Of a stretch of DNA of 64,000 bases, positions 19,501 to 52,101 are shown piece by piece. The translations under genes and the position numbers were made by a program. The notes beneath the pieces are model-generated. The model was not told the origin of the DNA. It searched no databases and saw only the letters and a list, made by a program, of their open reading frames with translations. This DNA is from Cypionkella aquatica. Lineage in GTDB: Bacteria; Pseudomonadota; Alphaproteobacteria; Rhodobacterales; Rhodobacteraceae. The stretch spans positions 186,001 through 250,000 of the forward strand of contig NZ_BSPP01000002.1 of the NCBI RefSeq assembly GCF_030161095.1, given 5' to 3'. Positions within the stretch are counted from its first letter, which is position 1; the number at the start of each line of letters is the position of its first letter.

Positions 19501-19575
19501 CCTTACTGCCGCAAGCCAAAGATTAAGATTTCCTAAAGGCGCGGCCGTAAGCCCTTGAAATCAAAAGGCGCAAAA

Positions 19576-19594
19576 CGGTCCCGAGTTGGGACCG
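19576..19594 (-). terminator. intrinsic terminator of pckA
   Basis: Inverted repeat CGGTCCC (19576-19582) and GGGACCG (19588-19594) around GAGTT. On the minus strand the hairpin is followed by TTTTGCGCCTTTT. It lies seven bases beyond the pckA stop. Confidence 0.75.
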
Positions 19595-19601
19595 CTCCTT
19601 T

Positions 19602-21200
19602 TCAGCCAATCGCCGCAGCCTTCACATCGGCATCAATGAACGGCACATATTGCGCGAAATTATCGGCAAACATCCCCACCAGTTTCGCAGCCTGCGCATC
19701 ATAAGCCGCCGCATCACCCCAGGTCGCGCGCGGGTCCAGCAGCGCCGCATCGACCCCCGGAACCGAGACCGGAACCTCAAAGCCAAAGTTCGGATCGCGC
19801 CGGAACGCCCCCGCGCCCAATGACCCATCCAAAGCCGCCGTCAGCAGTGCCCGCGTCGCCTTGATCGGCATCCGTTTTCCCGTGCCATATTTGCCGCCCG
19901 TCCAGCCCGTATTCACCAGCCAGCACGACGCACCAAACTGCGCAATCTTGGCCTGCAACAGCTTGCCGTAAATCTCCGGTCGCCGCGGCATGAAGGGCGC
20001 GCCGAAACAGGTCGAGAACGTCGGCGTCGGCTCCACAATCCCGCGCTCGGTCCCCGGCGTTTTCGAGGTGAAGCCCGAGAGGAAATGATACATCGCCTGC
20101 GCCGGCGTCAGCCGCGCAATCGGCGGCAGCACGCCATAGGCATCGCAGGTCAGCATGATCACATGCTTGGGATGCCCGCCCATGCCCGTATCCGACGCGT
20201 TCGAGATATAGTCCAGCGGATAGGCGCAGCGCATATTTTCGGTCAGGCTGGTGTCGCTGAAATCCAGATCCAGCGTTTCGGGATCGAACACCATATTCTC
20301 AACCACCGTGCCAAAGCGCGAGGTGGTGGCATAGATCTCGGGTTCCGCCTCGGCCGACAGATGGATCGTCTTGGCATAGCAGCCGCCCTCAAAGTTGAAG
20401 GTGCCGCGATCCGACCAGCCATGTTCATCATCGCCAATCAGGATCCGCGACGGATCCGCCGACAAGGTGGTTTTCCCCGTGCCCGACAGCCCGAAGAACA
20501 CCGCCGAATCCACCGGGTTGCCGATCGCATGGTTGGCCGAGCAATGCATCGGCATCACGCCCTTTTCCGGCAAAAGGTAGTTCAGCAGCGTGAACACGGC
20601 TTTCTTGTTCTCGCCGGCATAAGCGGTGCCACCAATCAGGATCATCTTGCGCTCAAAGTTCAGCGCGATCACGGTTGTGGTGCGGCAGCCATGCTTGGCG
20701 GGATCGGCTTCGAACGACGGGCAGTTGATCACCGTCCACTCCGGCACAAAGCTGTCCAATTCAGCCCGCGCGGGACGCCGCAGCATGTGGCGGATGAACA
20801 GGCCATGCCATGCCAGTTCCGTCACCATCCGCACGTCCAGACGGTGCACCGGGTCGGCGCCCCCGAACAGATCCTGCACGAAATAGTCGCGGCCCTGCAT
20901 ATGCGCCAGCATATCGGCATACAGCCGCTCGAACGCATCGGGGGCCATCGGCGCGTTGTTGTCCCACCAGATCGTCTCCTCGACGCCAGCGGTGCGCACC
21001 ACAAATTTATCCTTGGGCGAGCGGCCGGTAAATTGCCCGGTCGAGCATAAAAACGCACCACCTTTGCCCAGTTGGCCTTCGCCCCGCGACACTGCGGCTT
21101 CGACCAAAGCAGGCTCGATATAGTTGTAATAGACGTGACCCAGACCGCTGATGCCCTGATCTTCCAACCGTTGCGATGGGTTCACACGTCCATTCATCAT
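19602..21200 (-). CDS. pckA: phosphoenolpyruvate carboxykinase (ATP)
   Basis: Converts oxaloacetate to PEP at the entry to gluconeogenesis. 532 residues from the first of two adjacent ATGs (21200, [10 protein letters not shown]), with GGGAG six bases upstream; longer in-frame extensions are rejected. ATP-type signatures: [10 protein letters not shown] near residue 65, P-loop [14 protein letters not shown], and [10 protein letters not shown]. Divergent from chvI, an arrangement kept in many alphaproteobacteria. Repeated GTTAGC motifs upstream may be operators. Confidence 0.97.
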
Positions 21201-25988: not shown

Positions 25989-26864
25989 GTGACAGACACG
26001 CCACAGACAGAGACCGTCGCAGGTCAGGCTCCGGCCAAGCGTGAATATGACATGCGGCGGCTGTCCTATGCGGGGACGTTCAGCAACCCTTTCAAGGCGG
26101 GCACGATTCGCGCGATTGAATGGTTGACCGCCAAGATCACCCTTTTGAAGCTGATCCGCGATTTTGAGCGCTCGGGTGCGCCGTTTGGCTCGCCGTTCTG
26201 GCCCAAAGCGATCAAGCAAATGGGCATCCGAATCGACACGCCCCCGGAAGAGATCGCGCTTATTCCGCCGACCGGGCCGCTGGTTGTGGTGGCGAACCAT
26301 CCGCATGGGCTGGTCGATGGCATGATCATGGCCGAAATGGTCAACCGGGTGCGGTCCGACTTTAAGATCCTGACCCGAAGCCTTCTGACGGGTATTCCCG
26401 AAGTTGCAGAATTCATGATCCCGGTGCCATTCCCGCACGAGGAAAACGCGCGCGAATTGGGCTTGCAGATGCGCAATGAAACCATGGCGCATCTGAAGGC
26501 TGGCGGCGTGATTATCGTGTTTCCGGCGGGCAAGGTTGCGATGTCCGAAGGCTTTTTTGGTCCGGCGATAGAGGCTGAATGGAACGTCTTTACCCACAAG
26601 ATGATTCAGCGCTCGGGGGCGACGATCCTGCCGATCCATTTCACCGGGCAGAATTCGCGGTCCTTCCTGATTGCCAACAAGCTTTCAGATACCTTGCGGC
26701 AGGGCCTGTTGCTGTCCGAGATCAAGCGGGCTTTGTTCAAGCCACAGCGCCCCTATATCGGCGCGCCGATCCCGGCATCCGAGTTGGATAAATGGGATGG
26801 CAACCCGCGTGGCTTCTTGGCCTGGCTGCGCCAACACACGCTTGATCTGGGCAAAAAGCCGTAA
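25989..26864 (+). CDS. lysophospholipid acyltransferase family protein
   Basis: 291 residues, GTG start. The acyltransferase motif reads NHPHGLVDG near residue 98, a His-X5-Asp spacing seen in the hemolysin/OlsA-like subgroup, and block III is VFPAGKVAMSEG near 180. It probably acylates a lyso-lipid or ornithine lipid; the substrate is not determined. It lies 26 bases after ptsH. Its stop codon is inside a small terminator hairpin. Confidence 0.8.
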   Translation: MTDTPQTETVAGQAPAKREYDMRRLSYAGTFSNPFKAGTIRAIEWLTAKITLLKLIRDFERSGAPFGSPFWPKAIKQMGIRIDTPPEEIALIPPTGPLVVVANHPHGLVDGMIMAEMVNRVRSDFKILTRSLLTGIPEVAEFMIPVPFPHEENARELGLQMRNETMAHLKAGGVIIVFPAGKVAMSEGFFGPAIEAEWNVFTHKMIQRSGATILPIHFTGQNSRSFLIANKLSDTLRQGLLLSEIKRALFKPQRPYIGAPIPASELDKWDGNPRGFLAWLRQHTLDLGKKP

Positions 26865-26897: not shown

Positions 26898-26975
26898 GAA
26901 AGTCTTAAGAAATGCTTAATCAGCCCTCGCAACCCTTTGATTTCATTAAATCGAAAATTTGTCCACGCGTGGACA
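26898..26975 (-). repeat. palindrome-headed 3' element, copy 1
   Basis: On the minus strand: one base after the hbd stop comes the perfect 16-bp palindrome TGTCCACGCGTGGACA (26960-26975), then an AT-rich ~60-bp tail with TTCGATTTAATGAAATCAA, GGGTTGCGAGGG and TTAAGACTTT. The tail aligns, with small gaps, to those at 35349 and 38854. No open frame is shared. Function unknown. Confidence 0.75.
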
Positions 26976-26976
26976 C

Positions 26977-27852
26977 TTACCGCGTCGGGACCGGAACCTC
27001 ACCGCGATAATCATAAAACCCGCGCTGCGTTTTCCTGCCCAACCAGCCTGCCTCGACATATTTTGACAGCAGCGGGCAGGGCCGATATTTCGTGTCGCCT
27101 AGGCCCTCATGCAGCACATTCATGATCGCAAGGCAGGTATCCAGCCCGATAAAATCCGCCAGCTCCAGCGGCCCCATCGGATGATTGGCCCCCAATTTCA
27201 ACGACTCATCAATCGACTTCACCGAGCCCACGCCCTCATACAGGGTATAAACGGCCTCATTGATCATCGGCATCAAAATCCGATTGACGATGAAAGCTGG
27301 GAAATCCTCGGCGCTTGCCGCCGTTTTGCCCAGCTTGCCGACCACGGCCAGCAAGGTGTCATAGGTTGCTTTATCGGTCGCAATACCCCGGATCAGCTCT
27401 ACCAGCTGCATCACCGGCACCGGGTTCATAAAGTGAAAGCCCATGAACTTCTCGGGCCGGTCTGTCCGGCTGGCTAGCCGGGTGATCGAGATGGATGAGG
27501 TGTTCGAGGTCAGAATCGTCTGCGGCGCCAGATGCGGCAGCAGCCCGTCAAAGATCGCGTTCTTGATGGCTTCTTTCTCGGTCGCGGCCTCAATCACCAG
27601 ATCAAGCGGCCCCAGATCCGCCAAAACCGCCGTGGTCCTGATCCGCGCCATCGCCGCCGCCTTATCCTCGGCCAAAAGCTTGCCGCGCGAAACCTGCCGC
27701 TCCATATTCTTGTCGATGGTGGCGATAGCTTTGGCCAGCATTTCGGGGTTCACATCATTCAGCAACACCTCGAACCCGGCCTGCGCGAACACATGTGCAA
27801 TCCCGTTGCCCATCTGCCCCGCTCCAACGATGCCCACCGACCGGATTTCCAT
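26977..27852 (-). CDS. hbd: 3-hydroxybutyryl-CoA dehydrogenase
   Basis: 291 residues from the ATG at 27852 ([20 protein letters not shown]). NAD-binding GAGQMG, catalytic His/Glu in [17 protein letters not shown], and the C-terminal domain with [18 protein letters not shown]. It interconverts acetoacetyl-CoA and 3-hydroxybutyryl-CoA with NAD(P)H. Together with mcd and etfAB in this window it fits acetyl-CoA assimilation by the ethylmalonyl-CoA route, although PHB or butyrate metabolism is also possible. Confidence 0.93.
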
Positions 27853-28012
27853 GCCAAACGCCCCTTTTCTGCTGTGCGGCACAATCGCAGCCCAAAGCGC
27901 CGGGCGCAAGGCCGGGGCAGCGCCTAGAATTTGTCATAAATCCGCCCATTAGCAATTTGGAAAGACGATTCGGGCGAAGTTGATCTTGGGTGCTAAGACG
28001 ATTGGGTGGGCT

Positions 28013-28840
28013 ATGGCTTATGTGTTTCCCGGCGAGGGGTCGCTGGATTATTTTCCATGCCGATATGGCAGCTCGCGGGTGTTATTCCGCGGGCCAAGAC
28101 GAGATATCGAGCGTGCCTATGTTGCTGTTCTGGGGGGGACCGAAACCTATGGCAAATTCGTACCGGTGCCATTCCCCGATCTGATCGAGCGGCAGTTGGG
28201 TATGCCCGTTGTCAATCTGGGGTGCATGAATGCCGGCCCCGATGTGTTCATCAACGAAGCAGGAGTGACAGAGATCGCAGCGCAAGCCTCTGTCACTGTG
28301 GTGCAGGTGCTGGGGGCGTTGAACCTGTCCAATCGCTATTACGCTGTGCATCCGCGCCGCAATGATCGGTTTCTGGGGGCAACGCCGTTGCTGCGGACGA
28401 TCTTCCCGCGCGTGGATTTTACAGAGTTCAATTTTACCCGCCACATGCTGATGGCGTTGCAGTCTGCCTCTGTGGACAAGTTTGAGGTGGTCGCAGACGA
28501 GTTGCGCGCGGCTTGGGTGACGCGGATGAAGCTGCTGCTGTCACGTCTGGGCAAAACCACAATTCTGCTCTGGGCGTCTGACTTGCCGCCGCCGCAGCCT
28601 ACGCGCCGGGTTGATCTTACCTGCAATCCGCTGCTGATCGACACCGAGATGATCAACGCGATTCGCGCCCCCGTGGCCCGCTATGTGCAGGCGGTGTTCA
28701 GCGCTCAGGCACTGTCTCAGGGTGTGGATGGCATGGCTTTCGCGTCGATGGAGGCACCTGCGGCGGCAGGCCTGCCGGGGCCAGCCGCACATCAAGAGAT
28801 CGCAGATATGTTGATGCCCGCAATCCATCAGTTGATGTAA
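28013..28840 (+). CDS. DUF6473 family protein
   Basis: 275 residues from ATG 28013 (MAYVFPGEGSLDYFPCRYG). Hallmarks are LFRGPRRDIERAYVAVLGGTETYGKF near residue 25-50, then PFPDLIERQLGMPVVNLGCMNAGPDVF. The family is common in Rhodobacteraceae and has no known function; the VNLGCMNAGPD stretch recalls SGNH-like folds. A TTG 33 bases upstream is an alternative start, but the family begins at this Met. Confidence 0.75.
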   Translation: MAYVFPGEGSLDYFPCRYGSSRVLFRGPRRDIERAYVAVLGGTETYGKFVPVPFPDLIERQLGMPVVNLGCMNAGPDVFINEAGVTEIAAQASVTVVQVLGALNLSNRYYAVHPRRNDRFLGATPLLRTIFPRVDFTEFNFTRHMLMALQSASVDKFEVVADELRAAWVTRMKLLLSRLGKTTILLWASDLPPPQPTRRVDLTCNPLLIDTEMINAIRAPVARYVQAVFSAQALSQGVDGMAFASMEAPAAAGLPGPAAHQEIADMLMPAIHQLM

Positions 28841-28841
28841 A

Positions 28842-28863
28842 AAGGGCGCCCTAAGGCGCCCTT
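28842..28863. terminator. bidirectional terminator
   Basis: Hairpin AAGGGCGCC (28842-28850) with GGCGCCCTT (28855-28863) around CTAA, between the convergent ends of the DUF6473 gene and etfA. Confidence 0.75.
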
Positions 28864-28882
28864 CTGTCATACTTCAAACAGC

Positions 28883-29809
28883 TTACAGCTTTTCAATCAG
28901 TTCCGGCACTGCGGTGAACAGATCGGCCACCAGCCCGTAATCTGCCACTTGGAAAATCGGCGCTTCTTCATCCTTGTTGATCGCGACGATGACTTTGCTG
29001 TCCTTCATCCCGGCAAGGTGTTGAATCGCGCCAGAAATCCCAACCGCGACATACAGCTGCGGGGCGACGACTTTGCCGGTTTGGCCCACTTGCCAATCGT
29101 TTGGCGCATAGCCACTGTCGACAGCCGCACGCGAAGCACCAACGGCGGCGCCGAGCTTGTCAGCCAGTTTCTCAATCAGATCAAAGCTTTCCTTGCTGCC
29201 AACGCCACGGCCACCTGAAACCACGATCCCCGCCGAGGTCAACTCGGGACGATCAGAGGTTGCGGTTTTATCCTCAACCCAAGCCGACAGACCGGCTTCG
29301 CCCGGGCCGCCGATTTTCTCGACAGCTGCCGAGCCGTTGGCTTCAACGGCGGTAAACGTCGCGGTGCGGACGGTGAACACCTTCTTGGCATCCGCCGACT
29401 TGACGGTTTGCACAGCGTTGCCTGCATAGATCGGGCGCTCGAACGTGTCGGCGTCGATCACTGCGGTGGCATCAGAGATCACCATCACGTCCAACAAGGC
29501 AGCCACACGCGGCAGCACGTTCTTGTTGAAAGCGGTGGCAGCTCCACAGATGTGGCTGTAACCGCCAGCCAGACCAACCACCAAAGCTGCGGTCGATTCT
29601 GCCATGCCGTGGCAATAGGCGTGATCGTCGGCGAACAACACTTTGGAAACGCCGGACAATTTGGCAGCTTCGGCCGCCGCAGCATCGCCACCCGTGCCAG
29701 CAACCAGCACATGCACCTCGCCCAGCGAAGCCACGGCAGCCAGGGTTTTTGCAACGGCGTCGGTCGCCAAAGCGCCTTCGTTTACATCCGCAATCAGCAG
29801 AACGGCCAT
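28883..29809 (-). CDS. etfA: electron transfer flavoprotein alpha subunit
   Basis: 308 residues. The N-terminal domain starts [12 protein letters not shown]; the C-terminal FAD-binding region shows VSGGRGVGSKESF, GASRAAVDSGY, QVGQTGKVVAPQLY and ISGAIQHLAGM. Accepts electrons from acyl-CoA dehydrogenases (Mcd is a likely client) and passes them to ETF-quinone oxidoreductase. The start overlaps the etfB stop (ATGA). Confidence 0.96.
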   Translation of the reverse strand: MAVLLIADVNEGALATDAVAKTLAAVASLGEVHVLVAGTGGDAAAAEAAKLSGVSKVLFADDHAYCHGMAESTAALVVGLAGGYSHICGAATAFNKNVLPRVAALLDVMVISDATAVIDADTFERPIYAGNAVQTVKSADAKKVFTVRTATFTAVEANGSAAVEKIGGPGEAGLSAWVEDKTATSDRPELTSAGIVVSGGRGVGSKESFDLIEKLADKLGAAVGASRAAVDSGYAPNDWQVGQTGKVVAPQLYVAVGISGAIQHLAGMKDSKVIVAINKDEEAPIFQVADYGLVADLFTAVPELIEKL

Positions 29810-30570
29810 CAGATCACCCCCGCTTCGTCTTTGAGTTTCGCAATCAACTCGGCAACCGAGCTTACTTTGACGCCAGCCTTGCGGCCCGCAGGTTCAACGG
29901 TTTTCACAATGCTCAGACGCGGTGCCACATCCACACCGAAATCAGCCGGGGTTTTGATCGCCAAAGGCTTGGCCTTGGCTTTCATGATGTTCGGCAGGCT
30001 TGCATAGCGCGGTTCGTTCAGGCGCAGATCGACCGAAACGATGGTCGGCATTTTCACCGAAATCGTCTGCAAACCGCCGTCCACTTCCCGGGTGACCACG
30101 GCTTTGTCGCCGTCAATCGCCAGCTCGGACACAAAAGTCGCCTGCGACCAGCCCAGCAGCGCCGACAGCATCTGGCCGGTGGCATTCATATCGTTATCAA
30201 TGGCTTGCTTGCCACACAGCACGATACCGGGGGCTTCTTCCTTGACCACAGCGGCCAGAAGTTTCGCCACCGAAAGCGGCTCAATGTCGGTATGCACGTT
30301 GTCAGTCGCTTCGATCAGGATCGCGCGATCCGCACCCATCGCCAAAGCGGTGCGCAGGGTTTCCTGACTTTGCTTGACGCCGATGGAAACCACCACAACC
30401 TCGGTTGCGATGCCCTTTTCCTTCAGCCGGATCGCTTCTTCGACAGCGATCTCGTCAAACGGGTTCATCGACATTTTCACATTGGCAAGATCAACCCCGG
30501 AACCGTCCGCTTTCACGCGCACTTTCACGTTGTAGTCGATCACACGTTTGACAGGTACAAGAACCTTCAT
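29809..30570 (-). CDS. etfB: electron transfer flavoprotein beta subunit
   Basis: 253 residues beginning [16 protein letters not shown]. The AMP/FAD-binding region includes [24 protein letters not shown] and the recognition loop [18 protein letters not shown]. First gene of the etfBA pair, with AGAGATG ahead of the start. It forms a heterodimer with EtfA. Confidence 0.96.
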
Positions 30571-30687
30571 CGCGCATCTCTCCGTTCAATGGCCCGAAGG
30601 CCGCCCAAGCTCTCGCAGCCGTCATATCGTGTTGCAAGTCCGTATAACAGACCAAAACCGACAGAAATAAGCGGCGCTACGTCGCGT

Positions 30688-31260
30688 CTAGCGCGTGAGG
30701 CCCGGCACCCAGAGCACGTCATCGCGGCCATCATTGTTGGCGATACGGCCCGCGACGAAGAACCAATCGGACAGCCGGTTTAGGTATTTCACCGCCTCGG
30801 GGTTCACTGCCTCGGAGGCAGCAAGTTCCACCACCAAACGCTCGGCCCGTCGGCTGACTGTGCGGCACAGGTGAAGATGCGCCGCCAAAGCGCTGCCACC
30901 GGGCAAAATAAAGCTGCGCAAGGGCGTCAGCCGCGTGTTCATCGCGTCAATTTCCGATTCTAGGCGCGCCACTTGCCCGGCAATCATCCGCAGCGGCGGA
31001 TAGGTGGCCTCGGCATCTTTATCCATGTCTGGGCTGCAAAGGTCCGCACCCAGATCGAACAGGTCGTTGGAAATCCGCTGCAGAGCCGCATCCAGATCGC
31101 CGCTGCTGTGTTGCCGTGCCAAGCCTACCGTCGCATTGGTCTCATCCACCGTGCCATAGGCGGTGACGCGGGCCGAGTGTTTGGCTACCCGAACCCCGTT
31201 GCCCAAAGCGGTTTCGCCCTTATCGCCGGTTTTGGTGTAAATCTTTGACAGAACGACCAT
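30688..31260 (-). CDS. ATP:cob(I)alamin adenosyltransferase, PduO type
   Basis: 190 residues with the family N-terminus KIYTKTGDKGETALGNG, the motif RRAERLVVELA and the final block KYLNRLSDWFFVAGR. It makes adenosylcobalamin, the cofactor of ethylmalonyl-CoA and methylmalonyl-CoA mutases, in keeping with mcd in the window. Its start overlaps the stop of the small HIG1-like gene by one base. Confidence 0.93.
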   Translation of the reverse strand: MVVLSKIYTKTGDKGETALGNGVRVAKHSARVTAYGTVDETNATVGLARQHSSGDLDAALQRISNDLFDLGADLCSPDMDKDAEATYPPLRMIAGQVARLESEIDAMNTRLTPLRSFILPGGSALAAHLHLCRTVSRRAERLVVELAASEAVNPEAVKYLNRLSDWFFVAGRIANNDGRDDVLWVPGLTR

Positions 31261-31469
31261 CAGTTGCCCCCCCGGCTGCGATAATAGGCGTAGCCCACGA
31301 TGATGATGACTGCCCCGGCCTGCGCGATAATTCTGTAGCGCATCAGGCGGTTAGAGTGTTTGCGGTTGAAATCGCCACCCTTGGCAAAGCTGCCGATGCC
31401 AATCATCAGGATGATCAGCACCAGAAAACAGGCAAGGATGCCGATGATGAAAATCGGGTCGCTGGGCAT
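31260..31469 (-). CDS. HIG1-domain twin transmembrane helix protein
   Basis: 69 residues: helix 1 (IFIIGILACFLVLIILMIGI), the conserved loop SFAKGGDFNRKHSNRLMRYRI, helix 2 (AQAGAVIIIVGYAYY). This is the HIG_1_N-type small protein of alphaproteobacteria; mitochondrial relatives act with cytochrome oxidase. It overlaps the adenosyltransferase start. Confidence 0.8.
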   Translation of the reverse strand: MPSDPIFIIGILACFLVLIILMIGIGSFAKGGDFNRKHSNRLMRYRIIAQAGAVIIIVGYAYYRSRGGN

Positions 31470-31534
31470 GAGAGCTCCTTTCGCTTTGCCCCTGATTTAG
31501 GCGCTTGCGCAGAAAAAGCGAGGCGGAAAACGCC

Positions 31535-32359
31535 TCAGCCTTTGGCGATCAGCCAATCCAGCATCGCGGTTGGCAGAATCCGCCGGGCAAAGCCCATCAG
31601 ATACGTCGGCGTTGTGACAAAATACCGCGCCTTTGGTCGCGCTGATTCCAAAGCGTGGATCAGCTTTTCTGTCACCGCAGAGGCGGGCAACTCCCAACGA
31701 TCAGGCGGGCCTGCTTCATAAAGCCTGCCACGCAGTGACGCATATTCCGAAGCGCGGGCCGAGTTTTGCCAATCAATCCAGCGCTCAAAATGCGGAATCG
31801 CCTTTTCGCGGATGGATGTTCCGATCGGCCCCGGTTCGATCAAAATGATCTTGATGCCGGTGTCGGCCATCTCAATCCGCAGCACATCCGTCAGCCCTTC
31901 CATGGCGAATTTGGTCGCCACATAAGCGCCACGCCATTTCAGCGCGACAAGGCCAAGCACCGAGGAACAATTGATAATCCGCCCGCCGCCTTGCGCACGC
32001 ATCAAAGGGATCACCCGCCGCGTCAGGTCGTGATAGCCGAACAGGTTGGTCTCAAAAATCGCGCGCAACGCACCACGCGGCAGGTCTTCCACCGCGCCGG
32101 GGCAGGCAAAAGCGCCATTGTTGTAAAGTGCGTCCAGCTTGCCGCCGGTGCGCGCGACCACCTCCGCTACCGCGGCCTCGACGCTTGCCTCATCTGCGTA
32201 ATCCAGCGCGAAACTTTCCAAGCCCTCGGCGCGCAAACGCTCGCAATCGGGTTCCTGCCGACAGGTTGCAAACACCCGCCAGCCCCGCGCCCGCAAGCCG
32301 CGCGCCGCGTCCAGCCCGATGCCAGACGAGCATCCCGTGATCAAAATTGTGCGTTCCAT
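31535..32359 (-). CDS. short-chain dehydrogenase/reductase
   Basis: 274 residues. NAD(P)-binding TGCSSGIG near residue 8, Ser in NCSSVLGL, and catalytic YVATK near residue 147. Classical SDR with an unassigned substrate; the C-terminal extension is similar to retinol-dehydrogenase-like SDRs. No functional link to neighbours is visible. Confidence 0.85.
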   Translation of the reverse strand: MERTILITGCSSGIGLDAARGLRARGWRVFATCRQEPDCERLRAEGLESFALDYADEASVEAAVAEVVARTGGKLDALYNNGAFACPGAVEDLPRGALRAIFETNLFGYHDLTRRVIPLMRAQGGGRIINCSSVLGLVALKWRGAYVATKFAMEGLTDVLRIEMADTGIKIILIEPGPIGTSIREKAIPHFERWIDWQNSARASEYASLRGRLYEAGPPDRWELPASAVTEKLIHALESARPKARYFVTTPTYLMGFARRILPTAMLDWLIAKG

Positions 32360-32430
32360 GCCTGTGCCCCTTTGTGGGTTTTCCCCTTCCTAGGTGCTGC
32401 GGCAGGTTTCGACAATCATTCAGTGCAAAA

Positions 32431-32880
32431 TCACTCGCGCAACAGACGCGATGCGATATAGCCCTCAATCCCATCCCCTTCGACGCGGATCAGGGACCAG
32501 CCATCGACGCCCTCACCTTGCGCCACCACCAGAACCGATTCGCCACGGGTCAGCCGGTCAACCACGTCATAATCCTTGCCCGGGCCAGAGCGGACATTAG
32601 CGGATGTTGAGGCAATCACCATCACCAGGCCCGCTGCAGCCACTACAGGCTCTGGCGTAGTTTGGACTGAAACCGGCGTCGCCATCAGCGGCGCGTCCGG
32701 CACGAAAGCCGCCTGCGTCACAGGTAAAACCGCAGGTTCTGGGGTTTGCGACAGCATCACAGGTGCGGCCACCACGGGCACCGCCGCTATCATGCCAAAG
32801 CGTTGCTGGCCACGATCAACGCCGCCGAAAACCATTGCAGCATAAAGGCCCGCACAGAGAAACAGAGTTAATTTGAACAT
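32431..32880 (-). CDS. SH3-domain envelope protein
   Basis: 149 residues from ATG 32880. N-terminal hydrophobic segment (FKLTLFLCAGLYAAMVFGG) is a signal peptide or anchor, then a Pro/Ala/Val-rich linker, and a C-terminal bacterial SH3 domain (ASTSANVRSGPGKDYDVVDRL, YIASRLL). Such domains often bind peptidoglycan peptides; the role here is unknown. Confidence 0.8.
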   Translation of the reverse strand: MFKLTLFLCAGLYAAMVFGGVDRGQQRFGMIAAVPVVAAPVMLSQTPEPAVLPVTQAAFVPDAPLMATPVSVQTTPEPVVAAAGLVMVIASTSANVRSGPGKDYDVVDRLTRGESVLVVAQGEGVDGWSLIRVEGDGIEGYIASRLLRE

Positions 32881-33037
32881 CTTACAGGCACCCCACTGAT
32901 CGCCCGCAGCCATAGCACAATGCTACCAGAAACAGAGTGGAAAAAGCAGCGATTTCTCCCCCTAAACTGCGCAGGGCCGGCGCTGAATTTGCGTTTTTCG
33001 GCTGGACCAGCCTCGCCCCCCGCTCTACACCACATCC

Positions 33038-35341
33038 ATGTCCGACGCCGAAGATGACCCCAAGATAGAGCCGATTACCCTCGCGGAGCCTTTGGCCCGC
33101 GCGATTGGTGAACGCTATCTGACCTATGCCTTGTCCACCATTATGCATCGCGCCCTGCCGGATGCACGCGATGGTCTGAAGCCCGTTCATCGCCGTATCC
33201 TTTATGCTATGCGAGAGCTAAAGCTTTCAGCGACCTCTGCGTTCCGTAAGTCTGCAAAAATATCTGGCGATGTGATGGGAAACTATCACCCGCATGGCGA
33301 TTCCGCGATTTACGACGCGATGGCGCGGCTCGCGCAAGATTTCAACGTCCGCTATCCGCTGGTGGATGGCCAAGGCAACTTCGGCAACATTGACGGCGAT
33401 AACCCAGCAGCATCGCGTTACACCGAGGCCCGCCTGACCGCGATTGCCGAGACGCTGATGGAGGGGTTGACCGAAAACGCGGTCGATTTCCGTCCGAACT
33501 ATGACGGCACGCTGGAAGAGCCGGTCGTGATGCCCGCTGCCTTCCCGAACCTGCTGGCGAATGGCTCGTCTGGTATCGCCGTTGGCATGGCCACCAACAT
33601 TCCGCCGCATAACCTCGAAGAACTGATCCTCGGTTGCCATGCGATGATGGCCGATCCCGCGATCAGCGATGACGCCTTGGTTGACATCATCCCCGGCCCA
33701 GATTTCCCCACTGGCGGTGTGATGATCGAACCTCGCGCGACGATGGTTGAGGCATATCGCACCGGGCGTGGTTCTTTCCGCACCCGCGCGAAATGGCATG
33801 TCGAGGATTTGGGCCGTGGCACTTGGCAGATCATCATCACCGAGATCCCGTATCAGGTGCAGAAATCCAAGCTGATCGAAAAGCTGGCCGAACTTATCCA
33901 GACCAAGCGTATTCCTTTGCTCGCCGATGTGCGCGACGAATCCGCCGATGATATTCGCATCGTGCTTGAACCGCGCTCTCGCACGGTTGAGGCCGATATG
34001 CTGATGGCGGCCTTGTTCAAAAGCTCGGATCTTGAGGCGCGGTTCAGCCTGAATATGAACGTGCTGATCGACGGGCGGCAGCCGAAAGTGTGCAGCCTGA
34101 AAGAGGTTCTGCGCGCCTTTCTCGATCACCGCCGCGATGTTCTCAAGCGCCGCAGCACGCATCGGATGGAGAAGATTGATCACCGGCTTGAGGTGCTCGA
34201 AGGCTTTATCATCACGTTCCTGAACCTAGATCGCGTCATCGACATCATTCGCTATGACACCGATCCCAAGGCCGCTTTGATGGCTGAACACTGGGGCAAG
34301 CCGCACAAGCGCGCGATGTCCGAGAAGGATTATGTCCCACCGAAACCCGGCGAGGGTGAGCTTTCAGAGGTGCAGACCGAAGCCATCCTGAACATGCGCC
34401 TGCGCTCTTTGCGGCGGCTTGAGGAAATGGAGCTGCTGGCCGAGCGCGATGCTTTGATGGCCGAGCGTGCCGGGTTGGTTGATCTGCTGGAAAGCGACGC
34501 GTTGCAGTGGAAGCAGATCGGGCTGGAACTGGACGATATTCGCAAGCGGTTCGGCAAGGAAACGGCTTTGGGTCGCCGTCGCACCGCCTTCGCCGAGGCG
34601 GGCGAGGTCGAGGAAGTCAGCTTTGAAGCAATGATCGAGCGCGAGCCGATCACCGTGGTTTGCAGCCAGATGGGCTGGATCAGGGCGTTGAAAGGTCATG
34701 TCGATCTGGCGACCGAGCAGAAATTCAAAGACGGCGATACCGCGCGTTTCGCGTTCCATGCCGAGACCACCGACAAAATCCTGCTGATCGGCGCGAATGG
34801 GCGGTTCTATACTTTGGTCGGCGTCAACCTGCCCGGCGGGCGCGGCATGGGGGAACCTGTGCGGCTGATGGTTGATCTGCCGAATGATTCCGAGATCGTC
34901 GATTTGCAAATCTTCCGCTCGGGTGAAAAGCTGTTGGTGGCCTCGTCGGCGGGGGATGGTTTTGTCGTCACCTCGGATGAGGTGCTGGCGCAGACCCGCG
35001 CGGGCAAGCAGGTGCTGTCTTTGGGGGCCGGGGTCAAGACCGCGATCTGCCGCAAGGTTGTGGGTGATCATGTCGCCGTGGTCGGCGATAACCGCAAGGT
35101 TCTGGTGTTCCCGCTGGCGGATTTGCCTGAGATGGCCAAGGGTAAGGGCGTGCGGCTGCAGAAATATAAGGACGGTGGGCTTTCGGATGCCACCACCTTT
35201 GTTTTGGCGGCTGGATTGGCGTGGAAAGACCCGGCTGGGCGGACGCGGACTGAAACTGATCTGGGCGAATGGATCGGGGCGCGGGCAACGGCTGGGCGGA
35301 TGGCGCCGCGTGGCTTCCCGCGGGACAATCGCTTCAATTGA
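33038..35341 (+). CDS. parC: DNA topoisomerase IV subunit A
   Basis: 767 residues. The breakage-reunion domain shows [19 protein letters not shown], the quinolone region [11 protein letters not shown] (wild-type-like Ser and acidic residue), and the catalytic Y128 in [12 protein letters not shown]-terminal beta-propeller follows from about residue 530. It decatenates daughter chromosomes with ParE, encoded elsewhere. The stop is followed seven bases later by the palindrome-headed repeat. Confidence 0.96.
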
Positions 35342-35348
35342 GCGTGGC

Positions 35349-35427
35349 TGTCCACGCGTGGACAAGCTTGCGCTTTATATGATTTCAATGCCTTAGAGGG
35401 GTGTCATTCACCTATCGTTAAGCTTTT
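35349..35427 (+). repeat. palindrome-headed 3' element, copy 2
   Basis: Starts seven bases after parC: TGTCCACGCGTGGACA (35349-35364), then GCGCTTTATATGATTTCAATG, GAGGGGTGTCATTCA and a distal GTTAAGCTTTT. The distal end covers the stop codon and last codons of the convergent kdgK, so part of the element is also coding. Confidence 0.75.
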
Positions 35428-36308
35428 GGTGCCACTAACGCACCGGGTGCTGCGATCACTTGTGCCGCCAAGTTCGCGGCACCGTGCAAACACGCGGCCA
35501 TCGCCGCGCCCTGTATCCGGGCCGCCAGAAACCCCGCGTTAAAGCTGTCACCCGCCGCCGTGCTATCGACTACGGGGCTGGGCGCTGGCTGCATCTGATG
35601 CGTGGCACCGTCCCAAGCCTGAACGATTCCCGCGCCGTTTTTCACCACCACGCAACCCGCGCCCCAACCGCGATAGCGCGCGATGGTAGCCGTAGGGCTG
35701 GCGTCACCAAACACCCGCGCGTCTTCATCAAACGACGGCAAAACCACATCCGCGCCCGCTGCGGCAGCCGCGATCCAATAGCGCAGATCGGCGGCATCAG
35801 GCCAAAGCCGTTCGCGCATATTGGGGTCGAAGGCCACGACCGCGCCCGCCGCGCGCGCCTGCGCGATTGCCGCCAGCAAAGTCGCGCGCCCGGCCTGCGA
35901 CAGGATCGCCAAAGTGATACCAGAGAACACCACCAACCCGGCCCCGGCCAATCCTTGCGCCAAGGCGGCGGGATCATCGGCCAGTGTCTTTGCCGCCGAA
36001 CTGTCGCGCCAATAGCTAAAGCTACGCTCGCCATTTTGCAGCGTGATCAGGTAGATCCCGACCGAGCGGCCATCGACGCGCGCAACATGCGCCACACCAA
36101 CGCCTGCGGTTTGCATGAAGCCCAGCATTTGATCTGACAACGCATCACTTCCGACGGCACTCAGATAATCAACGCTGCAAGCCGCGGGTAACAACCGGCG
36201 CAGATACCATGCCATGTTGAACGTATCGCCAGCAAAGCCCTGCCGCAGCAGACCGCCACCAGTGGGCGACAGCTCGACCATACACTCCCCTATTGTCACA
36301 ACCCGCAT
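35418..36308 (-). CDS. kdgK: 2-dehydro-3-deoxygluconokinase (PfkB family)
   Basis: 296 residues from ATG 36308 (MRVVTIGECMVEL) with AGGAG in front. PfkB features: GGLLRQGFAGDTFNMAWYL at the N-terminus, the KdgK-like YWRDSSAAKTL, and the C-terminal VDSTAAGDSFNAGFLAAR with the catalytic Asp. It phosphorylates KDG in the Entner-Doudoroff-type breakdown of uronates or galactonate. The partner aldolase is not in the window. Confidence 0.85.
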   Translation of the reverse strand: MRVVTIGECMVELSPTGGGLLRQGFAGDTFNMAWYLRRLLPAACSVDYLSAVGSDALSDQMLGFMQTAGVGVAHVARVDGRSVGIYLITLQNGERSFSYWRDSSAAKTLADDPAALAQGLAGAGLVVFSGITLAILSQAGRATLLAAIAQARAAGAVVAFDPNMRERLWPDAADLRYWIAAAAAGADVVLPSFDEDARVFGDASPTATIARYRGWGAGCVVVKNGAGIVQAWDGATHQMQPAPSPVVDSTAAGDSFNAGFLAARIQGAAMAACLHGAANLAAQVIAAPGALVAPKA

Positions 36309-36441
36309 CGCATACTCCTGCATCTTTGCCAGAATGGGCGCAGCAGGCCTTGCCCGCAAGTGCGCCGCCGCAAGTGCGCCATTGAACCGCGCCCGCGCAG
36401 AGGCTACCCTGCGCGGCAGTGCAGCAATCAGGATTTTCAGC

Positions 36442-36687
36442 ATGGCGCAGCGACTTCATCTGGTGTTTGGCGGCGAACTTGTCAGCCCGCAGAAGAATGT
36501 GTTCAAGGATGTCAGCCAGATTCATATTGTGGGCATGTATCCCGATTATGCGACCGCCTTTGGCGCATGGAAAGCCGAGGCGCAGCGCACGGTCGACAAC
36601 GCCCATATGCGCTATTTCATCGCGCATATTCACCGCTTGCGCGAAGAAGGTGTGCCGGGATCCCTGACCGAGGAGATGGGCGCGTAA
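36442..36687 (+). CDS. DUF4170 family protein
   Basis: 81 residues from ATG 36442 (MAQRLHLVFGGELVSP), with KDVSQIHIVGMYPDYATAFGAWKA and RYFIAHIHRLREE. Small soluble protein of unknown function that regularly precedes the Kdo-transferase and lpxK genes in Rhodobacteraceae, as here, so a link with lipid A synthesis is plausible. The waaA-like gene begins 15 bases downstream. Confidence 0.8.
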   Translation: MAQRLHLVFGGELVSPQKNVFKDVSQIHIVGMYPDYATAFGAWKAEAQRTVDNAHMRYFIAHIHRLREEGVPGSLTEEMGA

Positions 36688-36702
36688 AAGCGACCGTTTT
36701 TC

Positions 36703-37893
36703 ATGGTGCTCTCTCTCGGCCGCACGCTTTACAATCTGACGGCGCGGCGGGCGGGCGGGGGTGATGATGCTCGCCCGGCGCGTCCACCGGGTGACCTGAT
36801 CTGGCTGCATGCGGCCGAGGTCGGCTGTTCGCGTGGGTTGCGGCAACTGGCCCTGCGTCTGGTCGAGGAACTGGGCGTCACAATTTTGCTGACCTGCCCC
36901 GACGAGGTGCCACTTACCGCCAATATGCTGCATCAGCATCCGCCCGCCGACACGCCCGCCGAGGCCCGTGCTTTTCTGTCACATTGGGCCCCTGCTTTGG
37001 TGATCATGGCCGAGGGCGAGTTGCGCCCTGCGGTGCTGCACGAGGCCGAACAGCGCAAGCTGGCTGTGATCATGGTTGATGCGCGCGCGCCTTATCTGAT
37101 GCAAGGGCGCGAGGGCTGGTATCCGGGGCTGATCCGCACGGCATTGCGCTCGATCAAGCAGGTGCTGGCGGTGGACGAGGCGGCGGCGCGGGCGTTTCGA
37201 CGCGCGGGTGCGGGCGAAGTCGCGGTGGCGGGGCGGATGGAGGAACCTTCGGCGGCGTTAAGCTATCATGAACCCGAGCGGGCGATGCTGGCGGGGCTCA
37301 TGGCGACGCGACCGGTGTGGTTGGCGGTGGATGTGCCTGCGGCGGAAGAGGCGGCGGTGATCGCAGCGCATCGCTCGGCGTTGCGGTTGGCGCATCGGTT
37401 GCTGCTGATCTTGGTGCCGCAGGATGCCGGGCGGGCGGCGGAACTGGCTGCGGGTATGGAAGCAGCCGAGGGTTGGACGGTGGCTCAGCGCGCGTTGGAT
37501 CAGGAACCCGACACCGAAACCGAAGTTTATATCCCGGATTCTGATGCTGAATACGGGCTGTGGTATCGACTGGCCCCGGTCAGCTATATGGGCGGATCGC
37601 TGTTGGGCGAGGGGTGCGCGCGCAATCCGATGGAGCCTGCGGCTTTGGGATCGGCGATTGTTTACGGGCCAAGGCCGGGGGGGTATGGATCCGTTTTTGG
37701 CCGCTTGGGTGCGGCGCAGGCGGCGCGGGCGGTGGGCTCGGCGGGCGATCTGGGCGATGCGCTGAGCGATCTTTTGGCGCCGGATAGGGCTGCTCGGCTG
37801 GCGCAGGCGGCATGGACTCTGGCCTCGGACGGGGTTGAGGTGACGGACCGCGTGGTTGATTTCGCGCGGGATGTGCTGGACGGGAGGAGCTGA
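36703..37893 (+). CDS. waaA: WaaA-like 3-deoxy-D-manno-octulosonic acid transferase
   Basis: 396 residues, somewhat shorter than the usual ~420. The GT30 nucleotide-sugar side is clear: [22 protein letters not shown] near 300 and IVYGPR. The acceptor-side motif reads HAAEVGCS (residues ~31-38), where the family has HAxSVGE; the Glu taken as catalytic base is replaced by Cys. No clear N-terminal membrane anchor. Located between DUF4170 and lpxK, overlapping lpxK by one base, so a role in the lipid A-Kdo core is likely, but activity is uncertain. Confidence 0.8.
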
Positions 37894-38852
37894 TGCGTGC
37901 GCCGGGATTTTGGCGGAACCCGCCCGAGAGGCCGGGGCTTTGGGCGCGGGTGTTGGCGCCGCTGGGCTGGATCTATGGCTGGGCTACGGCGCGGCGGTTG
38001 CGGCAGCCGGGGTATAAGGCAAGCGTTCCGGTGATTTGCATTGGCAATATCAATGCGGGTGGGACGGGGAAAACCCCGACAGCGATTGCCTTGGTGGAAC
38101 GATTGGGCGCGCGGGGGCGGCGGGTGGCGGTGGTCAGTCGCGGACATGGCGGCTCTTTGACGGGGCCGATGCGGGTGGATATGGCGCGGCACCGGGCGGA
38201 TCAGGTGGGGGACGAGCCGCTGTTGCTGGCGGCGTTTTGTGAGGTTTGGGTCTCGAAGGATCGCGCGGCGGGGGTGCGGGCGGCCGAGGCTGCGGGCGTG
38301 GATGTTGTGCTGCTGGACGATGGATTTCAGAACCCGTCGGTGGTGAAGGATTTGTCGATTGTGGTGGTCGATGCGGCGGTGGGGTTCGGCAACGGGCGTT
38401 GCATTCCGGCGGGGCCGCTGCGGGAGCCGGTTGAGGCGGGGCTGAAGCGGGCAGATTTTGTGCTGGCGATTGGCGGGGATTTTGCGGTGGAAGGCGTGGC
38501 TTGCTTGCGGGGGCGGCTTGAGGTGCTGGCGATGGGGATGGCTTGGACGGGCGAGCGGGTGCTGGCTTTTGCGGGCATCGGGCGGCCAGAGAAGTTCTTT
38601 GCGACCCTGCTGGGCGAGGGGGCTGTGGTGGTCCGGGGCGAGGCTTTGGACGATCATCAGCCGCTGTCCGAGGCGTTGCTGACCCGGTTGGAAATCGAGG
38701 CCTTCGCGAAAGGGGCGCAGTTGGTGACGACGGAAAAGGATGCGGTGCGGCTGCCCGAGGCGTTCCGGGCTCGGGTTTTGACCCTGCCGGTCAGGCTGCG
38801 GATTGAGGATTGGGCGCCGTTGGAGTCGGCGTTTGATCGGTTGGGGATATAG
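37893..38852 (+). CDS. lpxK: tetraacyldisaccharide 4'-kinase
   Basis: 319 residues. N-terminal membrane-proximal helix ([15 protein letters not shown]), then [13 protein letters not shown] (Walker A near residue 50), [25 protein letters not shown] and [10 protein letters not shown]. Phosphorylates the lipid A precursor at the inner membrane. Overlaps the waaA-like gene; a palindrome-headed repeat begins one base beyond the stop. Confidence 0.95.
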
Positions 38853-38853
38853 C

Positions 38854-38932
38854 TGTCCACGCGTGGACAGGCTATCGGTTTATGAAAAATCAATGGGTTA
38901 GATAGGGGTCATTCAGGGTTTGTTAACTTTTG
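38854..38932 (+). repeat. palindrome-headed 3' element, copy 3
   Basis: One base after lpxK: TGTCCACGCGTGGACA (38854-38869), then ATCGGTTTATGAAAAATCAA, GGGTTAGATAGGGGTCATTCA and GTTAACTTTT. Closest to copy 2 in the GGGGTCATTCA block. The 38966 gene follows 33 bases beyond its end, so here it is also in a 5' region. Confidence 0.75.
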
Positions 38933-38965
38933 ACCGCGTTGCCCACATCAGGAGAACATCGGATT

Positions 38966-52063: not shown

Positions 52064-52101
52064 CTGGGACAACGCATCGCGGAAGTGTCCCAGCTGGGAC
52101 A
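52064..52101. promoter_or_regulatory. cluster of CTGGGACA half-sites
   Basis: CTGGGACA at 52064-52071 and 52094-52101 (30 bp apart) and its complement at 52086-52093. The last two form the perfect 16-bp palindrome TGTCCCAGCTGGGACA. It lies between the 3' ends of the exoY-like and wzz genes, just past a terminator. Regulator unknown. Confidence 0.45.

Follow-up and report, generated by a model that had tools for sequence, protein, structure and literature searches.

A stretch of 64,000 nucleotides from the alphaproteobacterium Cypionkella aquatica (Rhodobacteraceae; assembly GCF_030161095.1, contig NZ_BSPP01000002.1, positions 186,001 to 250,000 of the forward strand), referred to as the window, was found to carry four copies of an oriented element of about 80 bases that sits behind stop codons and recurs throughout the genome. 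The element consists of a dyad of about 15–19 bp, mostly two-fold symmetric, and a conserved tail with a core resembling the binding consensus of integration host factor (IHF) and a pair of short boxes. It is read here, with somewhat less than even confidence, as a composite protein-binding element acting at the DNA level and marking gene or operon ends, where a nucleoprotein boundary would stop or insulate transcription. The copies in the window, which belong to two dyad families termed A and B, are as follows.

26898–26975, minus strand: element copy 1, family A, 1 nt past the hbd stop (26977–26979); the facing gene is convergent, on the plus strand, and ends at 26864
26960–26975, minus strand: dyad TGTCCACGCGTGGACA of copy 1
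26930–26942, minus strand: IHF-consensus site AATCAAAGGGTTG of copy 1, matching the printed consensus
26905–26919, minus strand: TTAA-N7-TTAA box pair of copy 1
35349–35428, plus strand: element copy 2, family A, 7 nt past the parC stop (35339–35341); the next gene (PfkB family) is convergent
35349–35364, plus strand: dyad TGTCCACGCGTGGACA of copy 2
35383–35395, plus strand: IHF-like site TTTCAATGCCTTA of copy 2, with T in place of A as second base
35407–35421, plus strand: TTCA-N7-TTAA box pair of copy 2
38854–38934, plus strand: element copy 3, family A, 1 nt past the lpxK stop (38850–38852); the next gene (2OG-Fe(II) oxygenase family) is co-directional
38854–38869, plus strand: dyad TGTCCACGCGTGGACA of copy 3
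38888–38900, plus strand: IHF-consensus site AATCAATGGGTTA of copy 3
38912–38926, plus strand: TTCA-N7-TTAA box pair of copy 3
19515–19593, minus strand: element copy of family B, 8 nt past the stop of a phosphoenolpyruvate carboxykinase gene (19602–21167, minus strand)
19577–19593, minus strand: dyad GGTCCCAACTCGGGACC of the family B copy
19548–19560, minus strand: IHF-like core TTTCAAGGGCTTA of the family B copy

A preliminary description of this DNA had reported the three exact family A palindromes, their position 1–7 bases past the stops of hbd, parC and lpxK, and an alignment of the sequences that follow, all of which were confirmed; the family B copy had been overlooked. The distances from the stops are 1 nt for hbd (minus strand), 7 nt for parC and 1 nt for lpxK. 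The gene names agree with Pfam assignments (3HCDH, topoisomerase IV/gyrase A and LpxK, respectively). The palindromes are non-random: with up to 3 mismatches allowed, 100 shuffled windows contained 0.32 matches on average and in no case as many as three. The three tails match a tail model at E-values of 4.5e-17 to 1.1e-21, values that are partly by construction since the model was built from these copies and 45 others. The genome-wide scan that had been proposed revealed far more copies than first reported: the 4.04-Mb genome (G000) holds 49 exact copies of TGTCCACGCGTGGACA, of which 47 are distinct and two are contig duplicates. At up to 2 mismatches at least 92 matches per strand were obtained, against 1 for the reversed control, and some of these looser matches are probably members of another palindrome family, TGTCCCNGCNGGGACA. 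For the analysis of family A, 50 sites (49 exact and one with a mismatch) were taken, giving 48 distinct copies. Short contigs of this assembly may duplicate parts of long ones; C6 and C12 repeat element loci of C1 and C11, and a model match on C14 scores as one on C7.

The layout of the element emerges from the profile of the 48 family A copies, anchored on the dyad. Upstream of the dyad the sequence is near background, with a mild G bias at −1. Downstream, TCAA is present in 48/48 copies, at +20 in 42 and at +19 in 6; it is mostly preceded by A or T, the two T residues four bases past it are found in 47/48 and 48/48, and a purine comes next in all 48. This TCAA-N4-TT core matches the IHF consensus WATCAANNNNTTR, as printed in PMC10380432, strictly in 30 of the 47 dyad-defined copies and in 42 of them when W is allowed at the second place. 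About 11 bp beyond the core start two boxes spaced 11 bp apart, with the pair TTMA-N7-TTAA in 29/48 copies and a looser pair in 40/48; the exact form TTAA-N7-TTAA is seen in 13/17 copies of family B. Apart from a slight preference for G the spacers are free to vary, whereas the core is almost fixed; its conservation is therefore not explained by recent copying.

The tail is coupled to the dyad, as judged from copies located by the dyad alone. TCAA-N4-TT stands at the right place in 46/47 such copies of the C. aquatica genome, 20/22 of Antarctobacter heliothermus, 27/31 of Tabrizicola Prado224 and 20/20 of Cypionkella psychrotolerans, compared with 1/15 in a control set of the same palindrome from other taxa, viral contigs and one Rhodobacteraceae metagenome-assembled genome (MAG; L145). 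Nine single Rhodobacteraceae loci were excluded from this count; by eye, seven of these carry the tail or a variant of it, and L107 and L137 do not. Conversely, the tail pattern used on its own gave 50 matches in the C. aquatica genome and none when reversed.

Placement relative to genes was assessed with gene calls from a simple custom finder. The 20 nt preceding the dyad contain a stop closing a co-directional frame in 33/48 family A copies, 8/18 family B copies and 16/25 copies of G060, a genome of another genus, against 1/48, 1/18 and 0/25 in mirrored opposite-strand controls (5 of 30 G060 loci, lacking the exact dyad, were excluded). Under a slightly different rule the counts within 20 nt were 13/22 against 1 in Antarctobacter, 16/31 against 2 in Tabrizicola, 10/16 against 4 in a Pseudorhodobacter MAG and 11/20 against 2 in C. 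psychrotolerans; the palindrome set from other taxa gave 2/15 against 2/15. The Antarctobacter figure comes from the dyad-defined set, an earlier, overly strict pattern having picked up just 6 copies, 1 of them with a stop within 20 nt. Furthermore, the next gene is convergent for 44/63 C. aquatica copies of both families, 3 of 66 having no assigned next gene, compared with 118/310 gene ends of contig C7 followed by a gap of at least 60 nt (P 5e-6). In G060 the next gene is convergent in 16/23 copies, and the other 2 of 25 lie inside called genes. Placement is not random with respect to genes, and tails align well beyond the three copies first described; tail profile and stop counts together are strong evidence for a distinct, oriented element associated with the 3′ ends of genes.

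Searching with the tail pattern identified the second dyad family, B, with the dyad GGTCCCAACTCGGGACC, the same kind of tail and 18 copies in the stretches examined. Related species carry the dyads TGTCGCACNGTGCGACA, TGTCGCACGCGTGCGACA and GGTCCCGGCTCGGGAC, and the same kind of tail follows GCGTCCGAGCTCGGACGC in G060, GTGTCCCACGGTGGGACAC in G073 and GCGTCCCATGATGGGACGC in G163, all of other genera. In G153 the dyad before this tail is CCCTGTGTTACAGGG, symmetric in 2 of 4 copies read. No counts were taken from a MAFFT alignment of mixed families, which misplaced the B arms. Across the family the distribution is patchy. The tail pattern clearly exceeded its controls in at least 5 of 150 genomes, one per genus, with 106, 64, 22, 13 and 5 matches against 0, 0, 1, 1 and 1 in controls, and in a few further genomes matches equalled controls. 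As the pattern misses Antarctobacter-type tails (TTTAC), 5/150 is a lower bound. Within the genus, model R1, which was built from near-exact dyads and favours these, detects elements in 10/15 genomes. Lineage-specific sequence also separates the IHF-like core from the boxes: Antarctobacter has CAGAGACG, while G073 and G163 share the similar CAGRGRCSG (L326-L328, L333-L335); G060 has CTTGGAC between the boxes.

Comparison of orthologous gene ends shows how the element has changed. Among the genus genomes it is found behind lpxK in 7/15 and behind hbd in 5/14, with one more degenerate hbd copy in G001. At the lpxK end the dyad is TGTCCACGCGTGGACA in C. aquatica and G006, GGTCCCGAGTTGGGACC in G001, the family B sequence GGTCCCAACTCGGGACC in G005 and TGTCCACGTGTGGACA in G004. 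Sixteen further gene ends were queried; among the 30 of 50 matches that were retrieved, orthologues were found for twelve of these ends and behave like those of lpxK and hbd. In the resulting sample of 42 ends (the twelve further ends, 6 of 14 hbd loci and 6 of 15 lpxK loci), the element is kept by rule at 28, only 5 of which have the exact C. aquatica dyad; among the excluded hbd and lpxK loci, none except those of C. aquatica itself shows the element. The 14 misses were read by eye as 9 variant or degenerate copies and 5 empty ends, the latter being L010 and L041 in both G009 and G001, and hbd in G012. A hairpin with a T-run is visible at the empty L041 end in G009, and no clear one was seen by eye at the other four. 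The sequences show a lineage-specific dyad that is swapped within a constant layout at orthologous gene ends.

The same comparison bears on whether the copies are selfish small repeats, spread by a lost or unknown dyad-recognising transposase targeted to gene ends and now old and decaying. This is considered rather unlikely. It would suit the lineage-specific dyads and patchy genera, the rarity with which element-bearing genes coincide between genera, and degenerate copies such as that behind hbd in G001. In G060, the dyad encodes the last six codons (ASELGR) of rsmB (L368:2036-2056), as if inserted before the stop; in G006 an element lies directly past the rsmB stop. Against it, congeners share positions, with 5 gene matches between C. 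aquatica and G006 (whose 31 entries represent 28 distinct sites, with a usable upstream frame in 17 entries) in addition to the 28/42 orthologous ends, and spacers are free to vary while the core is nearly invariant. By eye, the ends of the 48-copy profile show no inverted repeat such as a MITE would carry at its termini. Mobilisation by a RAYT transposase was rejected, as PF01797 (RAYT, Y1) has no match at E 0.001 in the C. aquatica genome; 3 of 15 genus genomes match, 1 of them over the cut-off. A small mobile repeat had been among the options of the preliminary description; its recent mobility is disfavoured by the frequent persistence at orthologous ends, though copying may have been the origin.

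Another of those options, that the dyad is a hairpin in the 3′ untranslated region which terminates transcription or protects the messenger RNA 3′ end, is judged unlikely as an account of the whole element, the outcome differing between families. The position directly past stops would fit, dyads do fold as hairpins, and most remain symmetric from one species to another, with compensated arms in some cases. The GGTCCC type (B) is often a classical terminator, 12/18 dyads satisfying a hairpin-plus-T rule; of the TGTCCA type (A) only 2/48 do. In 54 of 56 tests, covering eight positions in each of seven sets, the bases flanking the dyad lengthen its stem no more often than in shuffles; the two tests below 0.05 are position 3 in Tabrizicola (16/32 against 8.2 expected) and position 2 in G006 (12/28 against 6.7 expected). 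Covariation of the arms was not found: across 25 variable A dyads from two species (G009 and G004) no pairing beyond shuffles was seen at any of eight positions, and the half-sites CC.C..G.GG were kept. Dyads of this set had at least 9/16 bases fitting the A consensus; 5 of 30 loci (4 of family B, 1 without a dyad) were left out. The outer three pairs are formed in only 6, 6 and 4 of 14 G009 dyads. On the side of a hairpin, positions 6/11 are occupied by G/T in 6 of 11 G004 dyads, a combination that is asymmetric in DNA and would still be a wobble pair in RNA. Whole-element RNA folds of the four window copies are near ordinary (z −0.9 to −2.1), and Rfam gave no match at gathering score for the window and 20 loci. 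Where the A dyad varies, a conserved RNA hairpin is not supported, and this candidate was rejected for family A on the unextended stems and non-covarying arms. The remaining option, a protein site, fits best of the three, considering the nearly fixed dyad size, the seldom extended stem, the non-covarying arms and the core resembling the IHF consensus.

Alternatively, the copies could be chromosome-organising sites, serving segregation, the nucleoid or supercoil domains and located at gene ends as the least disturbing spot; this is considered quite improbable. Rich genomes carry about 50–100 dispersed copies, IHF is an architectural protein, and the layout resembles parS of plasmid P1, in which IHF sits between ParB boxes. 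Spacing in G060 is hardly more even than random, however (coefficient of variation 0.86 versus 0.99, P 0.07, 100 of 106 matches), a weak case for even spacing. Strands are mixed along the G060 contig by eye, with origin and terminus unmapped, and replication polarity was rejected on the same 100 matches. Placement within a few nucleotides of stops is also tighter than such a role requires. On G060 contig C1, close element pairs (<10 kb) face outward in 11 of 15 cases and inward in none. An element-flanked transposon was rejected there, the six genes examined being core or ordinary metabolic genes (proS-, hisC-, rsmB- and murD-like among them), and the C. aquatica genome, with 74 sites, has only 7 close pairs and no outward bias.

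Known systems share single features with the element. Its nearest known kind is BIME-1 of E. coli, a REP-IHF-REP arrangement of repetitive extragenic palindromes (REPs) that have been linked to transcription termination (PMC2817692). Both are extragenic palindromic repeats with an IHF-type segment, which is predicted here. Unlike BIME-1, the element has a single dyad, followed on the other side by the IHF-like core and the 11-bp-spaced box pair, and is set by stop codons; the tag, the opposed pair and, in the C. aquatica genome, the RAYT match of that class are absent. GTAG- and CGTC-tagged REPs, of which the CGTC type is common in alphaproteobacteria (PMC3733652), likewise consist of a short dyad with a copy number of tens to hundreds. 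In contrast to these, the element has a long conserved oriented tail and no conserved tag or CCA tail: in the 48-copy profile no unpaired GTAG or CGTC was found, the bases beside the dyad being near background and TGTC lying inside it. Like intrinsic terminators it occupies gene 3′ positions, and family B often combines a hairpin and a T-run; unlike them, it has a long tail and a dyad that is fixed in sequence within a genome, and in family A T-runs are rare and the arms show no covariation. Correia elements (CREE) are small dispersed repeats able to bind IHF (PMC2649163), with inverted repeats around a core where the element has one dyad at one end. HRC-8-4 is another Rhodobacterales motif, situated between cco operons (PMC8632094). 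In the accessible literature, which included no preprints and few subscription papers, no description of the element was found, and a text search for four dyad sequences found none of them.

Two further palindrome families were observed. The third family, TGTCCC-NGCN-GGGACA, occurs at 52086–52101 of the window and on contig C7 (e.g. 2911, 200289–200345, 301674–301760); it is often clustered in 2–3 copies, mostly lacks an IHF-type tail, and in several copies is followed some 40–60 bp later by a CCACAA...GTGG motif. Palindromes of the type CCCCGGACTTGATCCGGGG on C7 (e.g. 30880, 33489, 470245) form many inverted pairs about 40 bp apart, REPIN-like in appearance.

Returning to the boundary element, a mechanism can be proposed in which a dimeric protein would occupy the dyad and IHF would bend the DNA at the predicted site about 28 bp from the dyad centre. 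A protein for 11-bp-spaced direct repeats would sit on the tail boxes, giving a folded complex. In family B (13/17 copies) and G060 the box pair has the sequence and spacing of the published CtrA consensus, TTAA-N7-TTAA, as applied in Dinoroseobacter shibae (PMC4046655); it lies behind genes instead of in promoters. The complex would be a barrier to RNA polymerase leaving the gene and would end or insulate transcription, above all between convergent genes. Since A and B replace each other at the same gene ends, a shared job is suggested. Hairpins of the B type are known to end transcripts, and the combination of such a tail with an ordinary hairpin-plus-T terminator in family B would explain the exchange of A and B dyads. 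IHF/HU-family genes are present in 15/15 genus genomes, which permits an IHF role without proving it.

Several observations weigh against this reading. The exact TCAA-N4-TT core is found in only 8/16 dyad-found copies of the Pseudorhodobacter MAG, and the palindrome occurs without the tail at two Pararhodobacter loci (L107, L137) and in one Rhodobacteraceae MAG. Some orthologues have compensated arms (GCGCCACGTGTGGCGC) and dyads mostly keep their symmetry across genera, both of which a hairpin would also explain. Within 60 nt, stops are found for 36 A, 11 B and 19 G060 copies, with controls as high as 13/48, 5/18 and 15/25 because convergent genes end nearby. Convergent placement may itself reflect promoter avoidance. 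Other ordinary terminators occur at 4/48 A ends on the same strand and 7/48 on the other, against 11/50 and 12/50 element-free convergent regions, only a weak trend. Most gene ends carry no element (11/310 on C7 do), and model R1 finds none in 5 of 15 genus genomes (G008, G010, G011, G013, G014). Genomes lacking the element have IHF/HU genes as well as those carrying it, the IHF and CtrA assignments are putative motif matches, and the exact CtrA consensus is present in only 6/48 A copies.

Bacterial gene ends are attributed to RNA hairpins or Rho. The element could represent an undescribed modular class of gene boundary, in which an exchangeable lineage-specific operator, an IHF bend and a CtrA-type repeat assembled directly past stop codons would let bound protein halt or insulate transcription between convergent genes, perhaps with a CtrA link to the cell cycle; this wider proposal is doubtful, while still to be taken seriously. 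A DNA-type end element swapped for a classical terminator hairpin in a sister species would make protein-based 3′-end formation directly testable. The element series would offer natural exchangeable parts around a constant IHF-like site, and the element-free genomes of the genus would provide a natural contrast for finding the gene of the dyad-binding protein.

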